Of a DNA stretch of 51,288 bases, positions 1,878-51,211 are shown piece by piece. The DNA is taken from the NCBI GenBank assembly GCA_020161755.1, contig JAIUOS010000028.1:1-51288 (forward strand). Direction: 5' to 3'. The first letter of the stretch is position 1, and the number at the start of each line of letters is the position of its first letter. Below the pieces are notes generated by a model. It was not told the DNA's origin and made no database searches. It worked only from the letters and a program-made list of their open reading frames with translations. The translations under genes were made by a program, and so were the position numbers. This stretch comes from Actinomycetota bacterium (GTDB lineage: Bacteria > Actinomycetota > Actinomycetes > Propionibacteriales > Propionibacteriaceae).

Positions 1878-4076
1878 TTACGCCGGGCGGACCACCATCG
1901 CGAGGCCGCCGAAGGCGGGGAGTTCGACGGTGAAGCCGCCGAGGGCGTCCACGTCGTCCACCTTGCGGCGGGTGGCCAGGTCGGTCACCCGGCCCTGGGG
2001 GAGGTGCTCGCTCTGTACGCGTCCGGTGATCTTCTCCGGGCCGAAGTTGAGCGCTGTGATCTGCACCACGTCCGACTCGAGGCGGTTGACCAGCACGAGC
2101 ATGCTCTTCCACGGCACGTCGGGCACGTCCAGCAACGTCCCGGTCGCGATGCCGCTGCGCTTGCGGATCTTCAGGATCTCCGCGAGCCGGCTCGCGAACG
2201 AGTTCGGGTTCGTGAGCTGGTCGGTCAGGTTCCCGTACAGCGCCGTCGCCAACGGCAGCCCGGACGCCGACTTCTTCGCCTCCGGTGCACTCCCGGTCAG
2301 GTCGTACGCCCCCCGCTCGATCCAGCGGGTGTCGCCGGTCCCGATCAGGCCCCTCACCTTGCCGCGGTCCAGCGGCAGCGCGCCCACCAGGTCCCACCCG
2401 GACAGCGCGAACACCCCCGGCTGCCACGCGTTGTACATGCACAGCAGCAGGTGCGCGTTCATGATGCGGCGCACGTCCGCGTCCGTGATCTCGTCCAGGT
2501 CGGTGATCCCCAGGGACGCGGTGATGATCGACGCCGTCGTGCACGCGATCCCGTTCTGCACGAACAACGCGTTGTACGGCGCCGCGTCACCGGTCAGCTT
2601 CAGCCGCATCGTCTCCCGCACGTACTCGGCCAGCTCGGCGCCGGTGGTCTCCCCACCGTCCAGCTCGTACGCCTCGTCGCGGTGCGGCCCCGCCCAGTGC
2701 ACGAGCTCGTAGGTGAGCTCGTCGTGGTTCTGGAGCGCGTGCACCAGCGCCGCCGGGTCCACCCCGATCCGCAACGCCTCCCGCAGCGACAGCCGGAGGA
2801 ACTCGGTGTCGCCGGTCGCCATCGCGAACTGGTAGGCCGGCCGTGTCACGAAGTCGTACGACAGGTCCGGCCCGACCGCGCTCGTGCTGCGGATGTCGTC
2901 CATCCCCAGGTTCAGCTCCTGGAACGTGAAGCCGCCCACCTTGCGCACCATCGAGCCGATCAGCTGGTTCGCCGCCTGGCTCAACGGGTGGCCCTCCGAC
3001 CAGCCGGGGGAGTCCACCGACTTCTCCACCCCGAGGAACCCGTTCGCGTCCAGCCGCAGCCCGCCCGAGCCCAGGTCGAGCAGCGAGTGCAGCGCGTCGC
3101 CCATCACCATCCGCATGCCCGCGAATGTCGGGTCCAGCCAGTTGATCGTCGGCTGGCCCTCCTTGAAGTAGTGCAGGTACACCCAGCGGCGCAGCCGTCC
3201 CTTGTAGTCCCACACCGGCCGGGTCACCGACCAGTTGGTCTCCTTCACCCCGGGCTCGTAGAAGATCACCCGCTGGAGCTCGCCGATGATGTAGCCGGCC
3301 TCGGCCAGCTTGCGCTCCACCTCGGCGCTCAGGTTCACCGAGTCCGCGCCCTCGGGGACGTCGGGCAGCAGGTCCCACGCCTCCTCGGGGATGTCGATCA
3401 TGTGGTAGATCCCCGGGTAGTCCAGGTAGTTCAGCTCGGCCAGCCGGAAGTCCGCGCCCTTGCCGGTGTGGCCGGGCACGATGTCGTCGATGATCGTGCC
3501 GTGCCGCCGGGCGGCGGTCGCGCACATCGCGCGGAACTCCTCCTCGGTGCCGAACGCCGGGTCGATCTGCATGCTGATGCGGTCGAAGTGCCCGTCCACG
3601 CTCGGCGTCGGTTCCCAGCCGCTGATGCCGCCGGCCAGCTTCAGCGGCCCGGTGTGGATCGCTTCGATGCCGATCTTCGCGAACGCCGTCCACAGCTCGT
3701 CGTCGCCGAGCGCCCCGATGAACGACTGCCCGGGCCCGGTGATCTGCGACAGCGGGTACGCCGTGAACCAGACGGACGCCTGGCGTACCGCCGCCCGCGG
3801 ATCCGGGTGCGCGTACGGCGCCGCCCACATCGCGTGGTGCCCGGCCAGCTGACGTCCGAGCAGGGTGGCGTCGTGCAGCATCGACTGCTCCTCCAGCCAC
3901 GCCACGTACGCGGGGTTGCGACCGTCCGGCTCGAAGGGCGGGGGCAGCGGGCCCACCTCCGTCTCGCGACGCTTCGCCTTCGGGCGGAGCCGCTCGGGGC
4001 GGGCGGCGTAGGGGGCCGGCTCGGGTCCGTCGAAGACCGGGTCGGGCTCGGCGGGGCTGAGTTCATCGACGCTCAT
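1878..4076 (-). CDS. GH13 family enzyme, trehalose-synthase (maltose glucosyltransferase)-like
   Basis: A 732-aa alpha-amylase-superfamily protein. The three GH13 catalytic acids are visible: nucleophile Asp in [11 protein letters not shown] (about 343), acid/base Glu in FTFQELNLG (about 386) and stabilising Asp in LQNHDELT (about 451). The NHDELT box followed by a hydrophobic stretch is the form typical of trehalose synthase (maltose-trehalose interconversion), which is why I prefer this call. However, the N-terminus lacks the short standard TreS opening and instead has about 70 charged/proline-rich residues plus a divergent barrel start, and the protein is longer than the usual ~600 aa. Substrate is therefore not certain. 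No maltokinase, treY/treZ or otsA lies nearby. It is 53 bp downstream of the HdeD gene on the same strand. Confidence 0.75.
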
Positions 4077-4129
4077 TCGAGAAACCTAGCGCCGAATCGC
4101 CCCGCTGGCCCGTCCCCGGGCCACGCGTT

Positions 4130-4702
4130 TCAGCTCGGGCTGAACCGCAGCGCGCGCACGATCTGGACGACGCCCAGGATCACCAGCGAGAACCCCAGCA
4201 GCAGCGCCAGCACGGCGACGCCCCACAGCGGCGAGATGAGCAACATGATGCCGGCCACGATGCTGATGATCGCGTACAGGATCGCCCATACCCGGGACGC
4301 GGCGCCGCCCAGCATGGTGAGGCCGGCGATGCCCTCCATGATCCAGGAGATGCCGATGAAGATGCCCAGCAGGATGCCCAGGCCGGCGGCGGTCGCGCCC
4401 AGGTTGGCGAACGCCACGATGGACGAGATCAGGAAGACCACGCCGAGTACCAGGTAGCCGACCCGCGCCCAGCCGCCCAGCTTGCGGGAGAAGATGCCGA
4501 TGGCGAGGTTCACGATGCCGGCGATCAGGGCGTAGGCGGCGACGATGCCGGCCACCACGACCGCCGTCTTGCCGGGCCACACCAGGATCACGATGCCGAC
4601 GATCAGCGACACCAGGCCGCTGACGCCGAGCGCAGCCCGGATGCCGTTGGTGACAGATTCCTCGACGGTCCTGTCTTGTTGCTCGAACTGGTTGGCGGTC
4701 AT
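4130..4702 (-). CDS. HdeD family (DUF308) membrane protein
   Basis: A 190-aa integral membrane protein with six hydrophobic segments in three similar pairs (for example GLVSLIVGIVILVWPG and ILLGIFIGISWIMEGIAGL), the pattern of the HdeD/DUF308 family. Enterobacterial HdeD is linked to acid stress; a role here is not established. I chose the ATG at 4702 because GAGGAG lies 6 bases upstream; an in-frame start at 4753 lacks one. The gene lies between the fluoride-channel genes and the GH13 gene on the same strand and could be transcribed with them. Confidence 0.85.
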   Translation of the reverse strand: MTANQFEQQDRTVEESVTNGIRAALGVSGLVSLIVGIVILVWPGKTAVVVAGIVAAYALIAGIVNLAIGIFSRKLGGWARVGYLVLGVVFLISSIVAFANLGATAAGLGILLGIFIGISWIMEGIAGLTMLGGAASRVWAILYAIISIVAGIMLLISPLWGVAVLALLLGFSLVILGVVQIVRALRFSPS

Positions 4703-4811
4703 TCGAATCTCCTCACGTGCCGTTCGGTCGTGCCTGCGGACACCTCCATTCATAGAGCATCGACCGGGTCCGTGGGCGGTTTCCGGCCGCGCGTGCCGTG
4801 AATCCGGTCGA

Positions 4812-5180
4812 CTACCGGCTGCCCAGCCAGTAGCCGAGCGCGGCGAAGGCCACGCTCAGCACGAGCATGCCGGCGGCGTGGGCGAGCACCGACCAGGCCC
4901 GTCCGGCGCGGAGGAGCCGGGCCGCCTCGACCGAAGCCGTGCTGAACGTGGTGTAGCCGCCCATGAACCCGGTGCCGAGCACCTGTTTGACGCCCGGATC
5001 GCCGGTGTGGAACGTCCACCAGCCCGTGATCACGCCGAGCAGGAACGAGCCGGTCACGTTGATCGCCAGCGTGCCCAGCGGCATGACCGCGTTCGCCGTG
5101 CGGCGTCCCACCTGGGCGTCGACCACGAACCGGGTCACCGCGCCGAGCCCGCCGGCGAGGGCGATGAGGAATGGGATCAT
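4812..5180 (-). CDS. crcB: Fluoride efflux channel subunit CrcB/Fluc (second of the pair)
   Basis: A 122-aa small membrane protein with four transmembrane segments. It shows the family motifs: GGLGAVTRF in helix 1, the conserved Asn in LAINVTGSFLLG, and GFMGGYTTFSTAS, the phenylalanine-box/sodium-site segment. Fluc channels work as antiparallel dimers that let fluoride leave the cell. The start ATG overlaps the stop of the upstream crcB by four bases (ATGA), implying translational coupling and equal dosage, as in Gram-positive bacteria that use a heterodimer. The riboswitch at 6234-6302 is expected to control it. Confidence 0.94.
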   Translation of the reverse strand: MIPFLIALAGGLGAVTRFVVDAQVGRRTANAVMPLGTLAINVTGSFLLGVITGWWTFHTGDPGVKQVLGTGFMGGYTTFSTASVEAARLLRAGRAWSVLAHAAGMLVLSVAFAALGYWLGSR

Positions 5181-5614
5181 CGGACGGCTCCGCGCCGGCG
5201 CCGGGAGCCGCGCAGGAGCACGCGCACCGCGCGGGCGCCGGCGAAGGCGGCCGCCAGACCGAGGACCACGCTCGCGACGGCGTAGCCGAGGCCGGTCAGC
5301 CACGCCCCGGCACCGAGCAGGTTGAGCGTCTCCACCGAGAACGTGCTGTACGTGGTGTAACCGCCGAGCACCCCGGTGCCGACGCCGAGCCGCAGCCCGC
5401 GCCGCCACCCGTGGTCGGGTCCGGTCTCGGCGAGCAGTTCGAGCAGGATCCCCAGGGCGAGCGCGCCGGACACGTTGATCCAGAACGTGGTCCACGGCCA
5501 GCCGCCCGGCGGCGCGGGCTGGAGCGACTCGAGCGCCGAGCGCACCCCCGTCCCCAGCATCCCGCCGACCAGGATGACCCCCAGCCAGGCGGGTCGCACC
5601 GGGAGGCGCAGCAT
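5177..5614 (-). CDS. crcB: Fluoride efflux channel subunit CrcB/Fluc (first of the pair)
   Basis: A 145-aa paralogue of the adjacent channel gene. It has GGMLGTGVRS in helix 1, FWINVSGALALG with the conserved Asn, and GVLGGYTTYSTFSVE in helix 3. An Arg-rich C-terminal tail (LLRGSRRRRGAVR) is predicted cytoplasmic. Start: the ATG at 5614 is the best canonical codon; a GGAGGG lies about 20 bases upstream, so the exact start is less certain than for its neighbour. It overlaps the next crcB by four bases and follows the universal stress gene by 35 bp. The two paralogues probably form one heterodimeric channel. Confidence 0.92.
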   Translation of the reverse strand: MLRLPVRPAWLGVILVGGMLGTGVRSALESLQPAPPGGWPWTTFWINVSGALALGILLELLAETGPDHGWRRGLRLGVGTGVLGGYTTYSTFSVETLNLLGAGAWLTGLGYAVASVVLGLAAAFAGARAVRVLLRGSRRRRGAVR

Positions 5615-5649
5615 CCGGAAGCCGGGGATCGCGTGGCCCTCCGGCGGGG

Positions 5650-6192
5650 CTACCACGGAGCCGGGGCCTTCCAGTCGACGACAGAGAGTGGGACGACGAG
5701 GACCGGCCGGTGCTGGTGGCGGGCCAGCTGCAACCCGACCGACCCGGCCATGAACTCGCGCAGGCGCTCGGTCGAGGAGACCCGCTTGGCGCCGACGATG
5801 ATGGCGGACGCCTCGACGGCCCGGGCCAGGTGGGTGAGGGCGCGGTCGGCGCGTCCGGCGAGGTAGCGGAACTCCCACGGGCCGGTGTGGTCGGCGAGGA
5901 CCCCGCCGAGGAACGCGCGGATGTCCTGGTCGCGCTGCATCCAGCTGTCGTCGGCCTGGTCGGGGTCGAGGTCGGAGTGGCGGACGGTGCCGTCCGGGTA
6001 CTCCTCGTCGACGACGCGGGCCTGGTCGGCGTAGCCGAAGTAGAGGGGGACGCCGCCGAGGGCCTCCGACCACGCCACGGCGGTCAACGCGACGAGCTCC
6101 GGCTGGCCGGGGACGACCCCGACCACCAGGGGCCGCCCGGGGACCGGCACCATGCGCTCCGGTGTCGGCTGTGGCACGTGATGGAACAACAC
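5650..6192 (-). CDS. Universal stress protein, UspA family
   Basis: A 180-aa single-domain Usp protein. The nucleotide-binding signature near the C-terminus is recognisable: IIVGAKRV, then REFMAGSVGLQLARH, then the last strand RPVLVVPLS. Start: the GTG at 6192 is preceded by TGGAGG with a short spacer. It is the first gene after the fluoride riboswitch and is followed closely by two crcB genes, so it is probably fluoride-induced. UspA-type genes are among those recorded downstream of fluoride riboswitches. Its exact role in fluoride stress is unknown. Confidence 0.88.
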   Translation of the reverse strand: MLFHHVPQPTPERMVPVPGRPLVVGVVPGQPELVALTAVAWSEALGGVPLYFGYADQARVVDEEYPDGTVRHSDLDPDQADDSWMQRDQDIRAFLGGVLADHTGPWEFRYLAGRADRALTHLARAVEASAIIVGAKRVSSTERLREFMAGSVGLQLARHQHRPVLVVPLSVVDWKAPAPW

Positions 6193-6233
6193 GGCACCTC
6201 CAGGTCAACGGCGCAGGCTGAGTCCGCGCCACG

Positions 6234-6302
6234 GTATGCGCAGGAACCATCAGCCGGCCGGCGGTTCGGGACGAGCCCGGGCGGGATCCATCACCCGGCC
6301 TT
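6234..6302 (-). ncRNA. Fluoride riboswitch (crcB motif)
   Basis: On the minus strand the RNA shows the hallmarks of the crcB motif in order. First GGGTGATGGATCCCGCCC, where GGGTG pairs with CGCCC (P1). Next AACCGCC and a short GGC-closed hairpin. Finally GGCTGATGGTTCCTGCG, matching the conserved CTGATG...CCTAC-type tail. The pseudoknot between GGATCC and GGTTCC has one U-U mismatch in the middle. A GGCGC/GCGCC hairpin follows before the ribosome binding site of the stress gene and could be the expression platform. Fluoride binding would switch on the usp-crcB-crcB genes. The location immediately before crcB genes makes the call strong. Confidence 0.87.
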
Positions 6303-6354
6303 CAGCCTAGCCACGCCCGCCCCCCTCGTGAACCGCCTCCCACCGGACCGGATT

Positions 6355-6480
6355 GGGGACGGTTCCTATCTCGGTCCGGGTCCGAGTTGAGAACCGTCCC
6401 CGTTTCCCGCCGGATTCTGGCGGATCGAAGAACCGTCCCCGTTTCCCGCCGGATTCTGGCGGATCTGAGAACCGTCCCCG
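6355..6480. repeat. GGGGACGGTT repeat array, locus 1
   Basis: On the minus strand, GGGGACGGTTC units recur with a 39-nt period (plus-strand GAACCGTCCCC at 6391, 6430 and 6469). Each has the palindromic core CCGCCGGATTCTGGCGG. The left end (6355-6401) is a second unit type with the core CTCGGTCCGGGTCCGAG. The array lies between the enolase stop and the fluoride riboswitch. Related copies are at 12826-12882, 21438-21565 and 51093-51211. Confidence 0.9.
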
Positions 6481-6490
6481 ACCCGGTCGG

Positions 6491-7756
6491 CTACCGGTCC
6501 AGGCCGTAGGGCAGCCCGGGGTCCTGGACCTCGATCTGGACGAGCCGGTTGTACTTCGCAACCCGCTCGCCGCGGGCGGGGGCGCCGGTCTTGATCTGGC
6601 CGCAGCCGGTGGCCACCGCGAGGTCGGCGATGAAGGTGTCCGGGGTCTCACCCGAACGGTGCGACACCATCTGGCCGTAGCCGGCATCGTGGCAGATCCG
6701 CATCGCCTCGAGCGTCTCGGTGACGGTGCCGATCTGGTTGACCTTGATCAGGGCCGCGTTGGCGATCCCGTCGGCGATCGCCGCGGTGATGATCGCGGGG
6801 TTGGTGCAGAAGTTGTCGTCGCCGACCAGCTGGACGCGGTCGCCGAGCTCGGCGGTGAGCTGGTTCCAGCCTTCGGGATCCTGCTCGCCGAGGCCGTCCT
6901 CGATGCTCCAGATCGGGAAACGGTCGAGCATCTCGGCGTAGCGGGCGATCATCTCGCCGCTGGACAGGTGGCTGCCGTTCACCCGGTAGCCGCCGTCGCG
7001 GTAGAACTCGGAGGCCGCCGGGTCCAGGGCGATGCCGACGCCCTCGCGTCCGGTGGGGTAGCCGGCGTCGGAGATCGCGGCGACGATCAGTTCCAGCACC
7101 TCCTCGGGCTCGGCGAGGTTGGGGGCGAAGCCGCCTTCGTCACCCAGCCCGGTCGCATGCCCGCCGGCGGCGAGACGCGCACGCAGCGCCTGGTACACCT
7201 CCGCGCCGGCGCGGACGGCCTCGCGCATCGAGGACGCACCGAGCGGGCACACCATGAACTCCTGGAAGTCCAGCGGGTTCGGGGCGTGCGCGCCGCCGTT
7301 GAGCACGTTGAAGCAGGGCACCGGCAGCCGCCGGGCCTGGCCGACACCGGGTAGCCAGTCGTACAACCGCCGACCGGCGGACGCGGCGAGCGCGCGGGCC
7401 AGGGCCATCGAGGTGCCGATGATCGCGTTGGCGCCGAGCCTGGCCTTGTTCGGGGTGCCGTCGAGGTCCCGCATCGCCTGGTCGACCTCGGCCAGGTCGG
7501 ACCACTGCCGTCCGGACAGGGCGCCGTTGAGTTCCCCGTTCACGTTCGCCACGGCCCTCGACACCCCGGCGCCGCCGAACCGGGCCGGGTCACCGTCCCT
7601 GAGTTCGACCGCTTCCCGGGTGCCGGTGGACGCGCCGGACGGCACCCCGGCATCGGCCACCGTGCCGTCGCCCAGACCCACCGTGACCGACAGGGTCGGC
7701 CGTCCGCGCGAGTCCAGGACCTCGATCGCCTGCACGCCACTGATCTCGAAAGCCAT
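6491..7756 (-). CDS. eno: Enolase (possibly a second, fluoride-associated copy)
   Basis: A 421-aa phosphopyruvate hydratase converting 2-phosphoglycerate to phosphoenolpyruvate. Catalytic and metal residues are intact: Glu in GDEGGFAPN (about 206), Asp in ALDPAAS, Glu in SIEDGLGE, Asp in LVGDDNF, Lys in ALIKVNQIGT (about 339) and the SHRSGETPDTFIADL loop. Several normally invariant stretches deviate (DDNFCTN, GGAHAPNPLDFQEF), suggesting a diverged paralogue rather than the main copy. I cannot see the rest of the genome to confirm. ATG 7756 was chosen because AAAGGTGG lies 5 bases upstream; the GTG nine bases earlier would sit on that site. Enolase is the classic target of fluoride inhibition, and the gene is directly upstream of the riboswitch-usp-crcB genes. 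Confidence 0.93.
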   Translation of the reverse strand: MAFEISGVQAIEVLDSRGRPTLSVTVGLGDGTVADAGVPSGASTGTREAVELRDGDPARFGGAGVSRAVANVNGELNGALSGRQWSDLAEVDQAMRDLDGTPNKARLGANAIIGTSMALARALAASAGRRLYDWLPGVGQARRLPVPCFNVLNGGAHAPNPLDFQEFMVCPLGASSMREAVRAGAEVYQALRARLAAGGHATGLGDEGGFAPNLAEPEEVLELIVAAISDAGYPTGREGVGIALDPAASEFYRDGGYRVNGSHLSSGEMIARYAEMLDRFPIWSIEDGLGEQDPEGWNQLTAELGDRVQLVGDDNFCTNPAIITAAIADGIANAALIKVNQIGTVTETLEAMRICHDAGYGQMVSHRSGETPDTFIADLAVATGCGQIKTGAPARGERVAKYNRLVQIEVQDPGLPYGLDR

Positions 7757-7983
7757 TTCGGCCACCTTTCACGCCACCGGCTCCACCGTGGAGTCCGGGA
7801 ACGTGCACCGCCCGGCCGACGCGGGGGATCGGGGCGAGACCACAGGAAAGCCCCACCTCCGTGTTCAGCCCAGCTGTACACGAGGTAGGGACCGTTGGTC
7901 ACCGTGGTGACGGTTTGTTGAGGGCGAGCCCCACCGCCCGAGTCGACTCTAGCCGACCCGGGATCCGGTGGCATGGCAGAGGT

Positions 7984-8028
7984 CGGCCCTTCGTGACGCC
8001 GGCCGAGCCAGCGCGTCACGAAGGGCCG
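7984..8028. repeat. Inverted pair of GGCCCTTCGTGACGC half-repeats (copy 2)
   Basis: Arms CGGCCCTTCGTGACGC and GCGTCACGAAGGGCCG are perfectly complementary over 16 bp with a 13-bp spacer. The arm is the opening of the repeats at 1803 and 25966, but the inner TTCG hairpin is replaced by a second arm. It could act as a strong hairpin; there is no T-tract. Confidence 0.8.
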
Positions 8029-8043
8029 CTGGAACGCCACTCC

Positions 8044-8212
8044 TTACCGGGTTTCTCGGCTTATCACGGCCGTCGGCGACCGGCGCGAAGGTGCTTGCTG
8101 AGTTTCTCGGGTTGTCAGGCCGGATTCCTGCCCCGTAAGCCGAGTTTCTCGGGAACCGCCGTAGAGGCAGGCGCGAACCGCCCTGATAAGCCGAGGAACG
8201 CGGGAACCACTC
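8044..8212. repeat. Imperfect repeat cluster with GTTTCTCGG core
   Basis: Four related stretches: GGGTTTCTCGGCTTATCA, GAGTTTCTCGGGTTGTCAGG, AAGCCGAGTTTCTCGGGAAC and TGATAAGCCGAGGAACGCGG. The first and last are near inverse complements. The cluster lies in the enolase/endonuclease V intergenic region. It may be a worn mobile hairpin element; I do not know the family. Confidence 0.55.
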
Positions 8213-8258
8213 GCCGGGGACGTGACCAAGGCAGGATCCACGGTGGTACAGATCGGGG

Positions 8259-8831
8259 ATGGCGTCGGTGGAGAACTCAGGAGCGGGAGTGGGCACCGCA
8301 GCTGCGACCATCGGCGCCGTCGACGTCCACTACGACGCCGACTGGCCGGCGCGGGCGGCACTCGCGGTCTGCCACGACCTCACCCTTTCGAGGGTGGTCG
8401 CCGAGCACACGGCCGACATCGCGCACCCGGCCCCTTACGAACCCGGCGCGCTCTACAAGCGGGAACTGCCGTGCATCCGGGCGGTGCTGGCACTTGGTCC
8501 CCGCCTCGACCTCTTGATCGTCGATGGCTACGCCACGCTCGATCCCCAGGGACGCCCGGGGCTCGGTGCCCACGCGGCGGACGCCCTCGGGATCCCCGTC
8601 ATCGGAGTCGCGAAGACGCCGTTCCGCGGCGCCACCCACGCCGCCGAGGTGATCCGTGGCACGTCGACGCGACCGCTCTATGTCACGACCGCCGGCGGGC
8701 TCGCGATCGCCGATGCCGCAAGGATCGTGGTCGACCTGGCCGGCGCGAACCGCATTCCCACGGCGCTGGCGCGGGTCGACAACCTCGCTCGTGGTCGTGT
8801 GCTTCCGTCCAACGACCTGCTCACGACCTGA
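8259..8831 (+). CDS. nfi: Endonuclease V (deoxyinosine 3' endonuclease)
   Basis: A 190-aa protein of the endonuclease V family, which nicks DNA one nucleotide 3' of deoxyinosine and starts repair of deaminated adenine. Visible motifs: the first metal Asp in AVDVHY (D22), the wedge segment PYEPG (Y60), Glu in KRELP (E69), Asp in LIVDGYA (D89), and the GLGAHAADALGIPVIGVAKT strand-helix. It is shorter than the roughly 220-aa E. coli enzyme, and the C-terminal part (IPTALARVDNLARG) is divergent, so the last catalytic residue is not clear. The ATG at 8259 follows CGGGG. Single gene; a tRNA-Asn follows on the opposite strand. Confidence 0.88.
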   Translation: MASVENSGAGVGTAAATIGAVDVHYDADWPARAALAVCHDLTLSRVVAEHTADIAHPAPYEPGALYKRELPCIRAVLALGPRLDLLIVDGYATLDPQGRPGLGAHAADALGIPVIGVAKTPFRGATHAAEVIRGTSTRPLYVTTAGGLAIADAARIVVDLAGANRIPTALARVDNLARGRVLPSNDLLTT

Positions 8832-8898
8832 CGTGGGTAGCCGAACAAGCGTCACGACGGCATCGTGAAAGGCCTAGTCGGAGCGAGAGGAATAGGGG

Positions 8899-8971
8899 CT
8901 CCCCCGCCTGGACTCGAACCAGGAACCTGCGGATTAACAGTCCGACGCTCTGCCAATTGAGCTACAGGGGA
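8899..8971 (-). tRNA. tRNA-Asn (GTT)
   Basis: A 73-nt cloverleaf with acceptor TCCCCTG / CGGGGGA (one T-G pair), anticodon loop CTGTTAA giving GTT, a normal T loop TTCGAGT and discriminator G. No CCA is encoded. Confidence 0.95.
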
Positions 8972-9007
8972 TCGCGCTGGGCGCGGGTCGTTACGTTACC
9001 AGAACTT

Positions 9008-21437: not shown

Positions 21438-21565
21438 GGGGACGGTTCTTCGATCCGCCAAATTCTGGCGGGTATCGGGGACGGTTCTTTGATCCGCCGG
21501 ATTCTGGCGGGTATCGGGGACGGTTCTTTGATCCGCCAGATTCTGGCGGGAAATGGGGACGGATC
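21438..21565. repeat. GGGGACGGTT repeat array, locus 2
   Basis: Four starts of GGGGACGG at 21438, 21477, 21516 and 21555, spaced exactly 39 nt. Each unit contains GATCCGCC-rATTC-TGGCGGG, a hairpin core. The array fills the gap between the convergent VWA gene and the YggS gene. Confidence 0.92.
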
Positions 21566-21568
21566 TCC

Positions 21569-51092: not shown

Positions 51093-51211
51093 GGGGACGG
51101 TTCTTCGATCCGCCAGATTTTGGCGGGTATCGGGGACGGTTCTCCAAATCCGCCAGATTCCGGCGGGTTTCGGGGACGGTTCTTCGATCCGCCAGATTCC
51201 GGCGGATAAGG
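51093..51211. repeat. GGGGACGGTT repeat array, locus 3, interrupted at its right end
   Basis: GGGGACGG begins at 51093, 51132 and 51172 (spacing 39 and 40). Each unit carries the ATCCGCCAGATTcTGGCGG hairpin core. Where the fourth unit should begin (about 51211), the sequence changes to GGGGCTCTTCAC, the end of a probable insertion sequence. Confidence 0.9.

Follow-up and report, generated by a model that had tools for sequence, protein, structure and literature searches.

The window, by which we mean the whole stretch of 51,288 nucleotides analysed here, holds in our reading a fluoride-resistance locus of two units, a canonical fluoride riboswitch followed by usp and a two-gene Fluc channel, and a variant fluoride riboswitch followed by the second enolase gene, here called eno2. 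We give this reading a probability of a little over three in four. It builds on the motifs and their covariation, on gene linkage, on the presence of another enolase and on a base pairing in competition with the pseudoknot, all of which this analysis showed.

The first-pass annotation had claimed a near-consensus crcB-motif RNA before usp-crcB-crcB and had named a covariance-model search as the check. Done over the whole window, that search places an RF01734 match of 39.1 bits (cut-off 34, E 2.1e-7) at 6304-6234 on the minus strand, the strand of all features described below unless stated otherwise. A6 (6291) and U38 (6252), A40/U48 and the pseudoknot (strands 6289-6284 and 6248-6243) are all present, the last with one U-U mismatch, and there is an extra, P2-like GGG/CCC hairpin at 6278-6268. 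No second copy of RF01734 was found elsewhere in the 4.08-Mb genome at E<=0.001 (the assembly is 96% complete). The mismatch, which had been singled out for attention, is real (GGAUCC/GGUUCC) but not special. We regard the central pseudoknot pair as tolerant because a pyrimidine mismatch occupies it in 7 of the 29 canonical aptamers compared, U-U in the window and in L047, L049 and L050 (the last with one additional base in its tail) and U-C in L044, L055 and L067. The canonical aptamer was correctly described, and taken alone it is a typical example of a class already known.

The GGCGC/GCGCC hairpin said to precede the ribosome site is also found in the sequence (6230-6226/6214-6210), and by eye the homologous leader of L008 has GGGCGC/GCGCCC as its counterpart. 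It is part of a candidate expression platform at 6245-6210, in which another stem, UCC(U)GCGC (6245-6238) with GCGCGGA (6229-6223), would be mutually exclusive both with the pseudoknot and with this hairpin. When the leader was folded, the usp ribosome site (GGAGG, 6201-6197) did not switch cleanly between an open and a closed state. The usp gene itself (6192-5650) is assigned to the universal stress proteins by PF00582 (30.8 bits, cut-off 24, E 5e-7, in a match that covers residues 95-168 only) and has no match in NCBIfam.

The genes that follow encode the Fluc subunits, crcB1 at about 5656-5177 (PF02537 E 5.9e-25, motif GGYTTYSTF) and crcB2 at 5180-4812 (E 1.5e-23, motif GGYTTFSTA). The start of crcB1 is probably the GTG at 5656, which overlaps the end of usp, and the four-base overlap between the two crcB genes that had been described earlier is present as ATGA at 5180-5177. 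Both proteins are above the PF02537 cut-off but do not reach the curated cut-off in NCBIfam for any listed family (for TIGR00494, 64.9 and 79.6 bits against 80.45), and their genes are the sole two crcB genes found in the 96% complete assembly. In what we take to be Bpe numbering of the motif positions, CrcB1 has Y in place of F82 and keeps F85, and CrcB2 keeps F82 and has A in place of F85. These positions fit the heterodimeric channel that had been expected, and we predict a CrcB1/CrcB2 heterodimer with one intact pore. The earlier interpretation of usp-crcB-crcB as driven by a fluoride riboswitch is supported by the covariance score, by the fluoride-regulon gene context and by these Phe positions. 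Beyond crcB2 on the same strand lies a gene for a DUF308 membrane protein (4717-4130, PF03729), with an HdeD-type NCBIfam match far under cut-off; the link of HdeD to acid resistance, taken from the model name, would fit an acid load from HF.

The second unit begins with an aptamer that the first-pass annotation does not mention, as it does not mention the upstream enolase. Before eno2, at about 7944-7879 (match from 7947), an E-value scan found RF01734 at only 20.9 bits, below its cut-off of 34, and no other Rfam family falls in this leader (4000-9000, E<=1). The P1/P3/pseudoknot architecture of RF01734 is present (pseudoknot strands 7932-7927 and 7893-7888), as is the linchpin A40/U48, and the aptamer departs from the family in its score and in having G6 (7934), C38 (7897) and C41 (7894) where the canonical form has A6.U38 and U41. 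The first two changes and, usually, the third distinguish variant from canonical aptamers in general. A covariance model built from 25 variants, which we call R1, gives 77.8 bits here, the window sequence being part of the model. From this score, the alignment and the covariation, and as far as these tools show, the RNA before eno2 is a new form of the known fluoride aptamer, with fluoride as its presumed ligand. Our literature search, which does not exclude earlier ones, found no description of a G6.C38 fluoride aptamer.

An alignment of 25 variants found by motif pattern search (A1) has 99.5% of its 400 cells paired, and pairing drops to 40-56% when the partners are slid. Both sides have changed in six pairs (2.5 in shuffles on average), and covariation stands at 0.335 against a shuffle mean of 0.174. 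Two points limit this evidence: the sequences came from a motif search, and P1 and P3 hold all the two-sided changes; the pseudoknot has three pairs that vary on one side, three that are invariant, and none changed on both. For pair 6-38 we compared 118 aptamers, made up of 29 canonical aptamers and 89 R1 matches of at least 39 bits, mostly one per genome. The pair is G-C in 83, A-U in 33, G-U in one and A-G in one (L050, shifted by an insertion). It is thus complementary in 117, where shuffles give 93 on average and 102 at most, and among 496 position pairs it has the highest mutual information; as the shuffles take no account of relatedness, these numbers overstate the evidence. A40 is found in 116 of these aptamers and U48 in all 118. 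Position 41 is complementary to position 6 in 111 of the 118, and since it tracks position 6 in this way, subgroup ancestry inflates the 6-38 statistics; exceptions run in both directions among the 123 R1 matches read (A6.U38 with C41 in 10, G6.C38 with U41 in 5). The change at position 41 is the most worrying for the variant, because NMR showed that fluoride strongly stabilises the imino proton of that U, numbered U38 in PMC8004769.

R1 matches occurred in 34 of the 197 family genomes, in 68 of the 394 class genomes and, at a stricter threshold, in 24 of 396 in a phylum sample; matches below 33 bits, which are possibly chance, are kept in the counts (G118, G154, G250 and G370 in the class, G430, G467 and G536 in the family). 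On the same 394 class genomes RF01734 matched 25, 12 of them above cut-off, and 61 of the 68 R1-marked genomes had no RF01734 match over the cut-off, four of the 61 being marked by weak matches only. R1 also catches canonical RNAs, with A6.U38 in 12 of the 123 matches read. Outside the class the phylum sample gave 16 matches, and all 11 that were read are A6.U38; the G.C form therefore occurred, as far as these samples go, within the class alone. When RF01734 was run on 20 variant loci it gave 19.5-23.7 bits in seven and nothing at E<=1 in 13, and further variants scored 22.5-32.5 bits (L051, L058, L059, L062 and L063) or 28.9 bits (L054, with G.U at 6-38). Streptomyces sp. F8 pFRL5, S. nigrescens SNP1 and Embleya NBC_00888 scored 62.9-65.2 bits with R1 and 18.2-21.5 with RF01734, and in pFRL5 the variant precedes crcB-DUF190-crcB, the DUF190 gene between both crcB genes being at 1398-1748 of L212. 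S. fungicidicus p1, which has the same crcB-DUF190-crcB order, has no R1 match, and viral contigs gave no match to one strict exact variant pattern.

The product of eno2 (7756-6491, with a probable start at the ATG at 7756) is above the equivalog cut-off of TIGR01060 (547 bits, cut-off 300), and enolase active-site motifs, with their presumed residue roles, are present in the nine motif blocks read. The genome has another enolase, split over two contigs in a setting that by eye looks, from its open reading frames, like mazG-eno-ftsB, and eno2 is therefore a paralogue. In a TIGR01060 search of 23 genomes, 19 had an enolase adjoining fluoride-type aptamers (18 with an R1-eno2 arrangement, plus G113, where a canonical match lies ~0.5 kb before the enolase), and all 19 had a further enolase match, in fragments only in G574 and G455. 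The four same-genus genomes without an R1 match had one enolase each. The aptamer-linked copies of G409 and G493 seem to be disrupted or truncated. The linkage is not universal. From 33 eno-relative loci, 29 leaders were readable, of which 14 had the motif on the eno strand and 13 had none, including those of Humibacillus L021, L022 and L025, whose enolases are eno2-like; in L019 and L020 the motif is on the strand opposite eno, before a mutS-like gene. Separately, GGGGACGGTTCT repeats with a period of 39-40 bases form three clusters in the window, at 6479-6390 between eno2 and the canonical aptamer and, on the plus strand, at 21438-21566 and 51093-51183 (12 matches with at most one mismatch, 0.47 expected).

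As to the enzyme, we rather favour the view that eno2 adds a mere dose of fluoride-sensitive enolase, and is not a fluoride-tolerant isozyme. The motif blocks inspected are enolase-like, and the review PMC11139923, which says that enolase is frequent in fluoride-riboswitch operons, takes it there as extra enzyme production. Against this, the eno2 lineage is separate, with 55% identity to the housekeeping enolase of G541 and with GDD-N-F-C-TN in 18 of 18 eno2-lineage rows versus GDD-L/F-F-V-TN in 8 of 8 housekeeping rows. The differing position is presumably next to a metal ligand. However, the mark tracks lineage and not the aptamer: it is found in the aptamer-less L021, L022 and L025, whereas GDD-I-F-V/C-TN occurs in the enolases linked to aptamers in G408 and G415 and in that of the G113 fluoride island. 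Fluoride tolerance of Eno2 is a guess; no paper on a fluoride-resistant enolase came up in our literature search, an absence that is no proof.

The genes downstream of the aptamers were assigned by tblastn with eight query proteins, within 1,500 nt on the same strand. Among 69 G.C matches in the class, crcB followed in 55 (one also with usp and one also with enolase) and enolase alone in one; the remainder had MFS genes (2), a contig end (2) or no gene assigned (9). The 39 G.C matches of the family, window included, preceded enolase (20), mutS-like (4), crcB (3), MFS (3) and usp (1) genes, with none assigned in eight, and the 12 A.U matches preceded mutS-like (6) and MFS (1) genes, with none assigned in five. 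The weak matches in G154, G250, G430, G467 and G536 are among the G.C matches without an assigned gene; by eye, some of the unassigned matches lie before phosphoglycerate mutase, dynamin-like GTPase or antiporter genes and others before nothing recognisable. The mutS genes were among the earliest partners of the crcB motif (PMC2864571), and with crcB, enolase and mutS-type genes downstream of the variant, the linkage points to fluoride. Some contigs carry several aptamers. L008 and contig C312 of G572, which have the same length of 80 kb, represent a fluoride island with six fluoride-type aptamers on a single contig, before eno2, usp-crcB-crcB, mutS-like, dynamin-like GTPase, antiporter-like and MFS genes, the last three partly by eye, and contig C201 of G113 (L071, L108) has several within about 13 kb, one of them, by eye, before a very divergent CrcB-like gene and then a PAP2-like gene. 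A weak R1 match of 36.2 bits with G6.C38 lies directly before a PPE-like gene (L167, G205).

From this gene linkage, we infer that the variant is an actinobacterial form of the fluoride riboswitch and binds fluoride. A more far-reaching proposal, which we consider improbable, makes the G6.C38/C41 RNAs a riboswitch class of their own in the Actinomycetes, one whose response has changed in affinity range or in ligand. This class would be the main regulator of fluoride channels there and would control, among other genes, one for a dedicated, fluoride-tolerant enolase isozyme marked by GDD-N-F-C-TN. It is unlikely that the ligand has changed altogether, so that the G6.C38/C41 core would sense Mg2+, another anion or a metabolite of lower glycolysis, while serving genes that are important under fluoride as well. 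As a rule the variant does differ at two positions of the fluoride pocket, and conserved changes in the core of a subgroup of riboswitches can be the sign of a new ligand; but the fluoride channel gene crcB lies downstream in those 55 of 69 class matches, and canonical A6.U38 aptamers coexist with the variant in, for example, G572, G541 and G513. The 6-38 change is moreover compensatory, and fluoride contacts phosphate-held Mg2+ and not the bases, according to PMC8752731.

In the eno2 leader, CCCUACCUCGUG (7890-7879) pairs with CACGGAGGUGGGG (7863-7851) in a hairpin (7890-7851) that competes with the pseudoknot; the duplex beats shuffles (p 0.015) and forms in the free fold. MAFFT and RNAalifold left the hairpin arms of the eno2 leaders out of register, with an apical 4-bp helix alone in the consensus from 15 of the 20 leaders supplied, and for this reason we used a per-leader duplex test with shuffles. 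Of the 20 eno leaders, 15 had a competing duplex at p<=0.05, as had 36 of the 55 crcB leaders, leaving 5 and 19 respectively without a significant one. In many crcB leaders the aptamer 3' strand (e.g. CCCUACUUGCG) has its complement in the ribosome-binding stretch (CGAGUAGGAG) upstream of the start codon. Start and ribosome site could be placed in 46 of the 55 (three were beyond the distance limit and six had no site), and in these, when both pseudoknot strands were held, mean openness of the site rose from 0.26 to 0.48, with 33 leaders opening and three closing. Holding the 3' strand alone gave 0.51, the 5' strand alone 0.26 and other aptamer positions 0.29 (8 of 46 open), and in only 22 of the 46 leaders was the effect of holding the pseudoknot larger than that of every one of ten controls. 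This opening of the site in the folding model argues fairly for translation control of crcB. Since some 95 nt separate the eno2 hairpin from the start codon and a long U-run is missing, transcription or co-transcriptional control is faintly suggested for eno2. A leader-peptide reading of the GGAGG inside this hairpin was rejected, because no conserved start codon follows it in the leaders printed and inspected by eye.

That the leader element is a protein-binding or processing site descended from a fluoride aptamer, with no ligand sensing, would agree with the distance and the missing U-run of the eno2 hairpin, but it is highly improbable given that ligand-pocket positions are constrained, pair 6-38 covaries, the linchpin A40/U48 is kept and pseudoknot-exclusive pairing recurs in unrelated leaders. 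In the two-unit fluoride reading, the canonical riboswitch would control usp and the two-gene Fluc channel, and the G6.C38 (mostly C41) variant would control the second enolase, a glycolytic enzyme that is inhibited by fluoride. Fluoride with Mg2+ would close the pocket of the variant; the closed pocket would keep the CCC of the aptamer 3' strand in the pseudoknot, so that the downstream element is freed and expression is on. The element freed would be the ribosome site in the crcB leaders and, before eno2, a terminator-like hairpin, and the extra enolase might keep glycolysis running under fluoride.

If the variant binds fluoride, a search with RF01734 at its cut-off misses many of the fluoride riboswitches in a major class that includes Streptomyces. 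The variants would then also be naturally occurring double mutants of the base pair at which the fluoride pocket is closed, and therefore the shares of base identity and of the phosphate-Mg2+ cage in the pocket would become testable. If it does not bind fluoride, it is a new class of riboswitch, with a ligand still to be identified. The link to enolase, in turn, supplies a candidate fluoride-tolerant version of an enzyme that is a classic target of fluoride.

Several known systems can be set beside this locus. The variant is like RF01734 in P1, P3, the pseudoknot, the linchpin A40/U48 and the kinds of downstream gene, and unlike it in having G6.C38 for A6.U38, mostly C41, and a low RF01734 score. 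A tertiary pair that may be either G-C or A-U has a precedent, though in another RNA, in the reversed Watson-Crick Levitt pair 15-48 of tRNA (PMC5372741, PMC9976931).

The CrcB pair resembles the heterodimeric Fluc channels (PMC5636608, PMC5417652) in its adjoining genes and in Phe losses that are confined to one pore. Every Fluc pore gets one Phe from each subunit, and with this geometry (PMC5417652) one pore of the window and of L008 has F+F and the other Y+A; the substituted residues, Y and A, differ from the Leu or Met of the Lactobacillus and Staphylococcus pairs (PMC5636608, PMC5417652). There were 59 crcB loci among the R1 matches, with both Phe motifs readable in 53. One pore only keeps both Phe in 41 of these, neither pore in 11 and both pores in one, and in 39 of the 41 the intact pore is opposite to that of the window. 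This single-pore pattern agrees with the proposal in PMC5636608 that one pore of heterodimers is possibly lost.

A further known system is the fluoride operon of Enterobacter cloacae FRM, in which ppaC-uspA-eno-gpmA-crcB is under a fluoride riboswitch (PMC5533749), and this published precedent supports our reading of the window as a fluoride locus. Both there and in the window usp, enolase and crcB come under fluoride-riboswitch control, which for the window is predicted. The E. cloacae system has one riboswitch and one six-gene operon (PMC5533749), whereas the window has two aptamer types, two units and a paired crcB.
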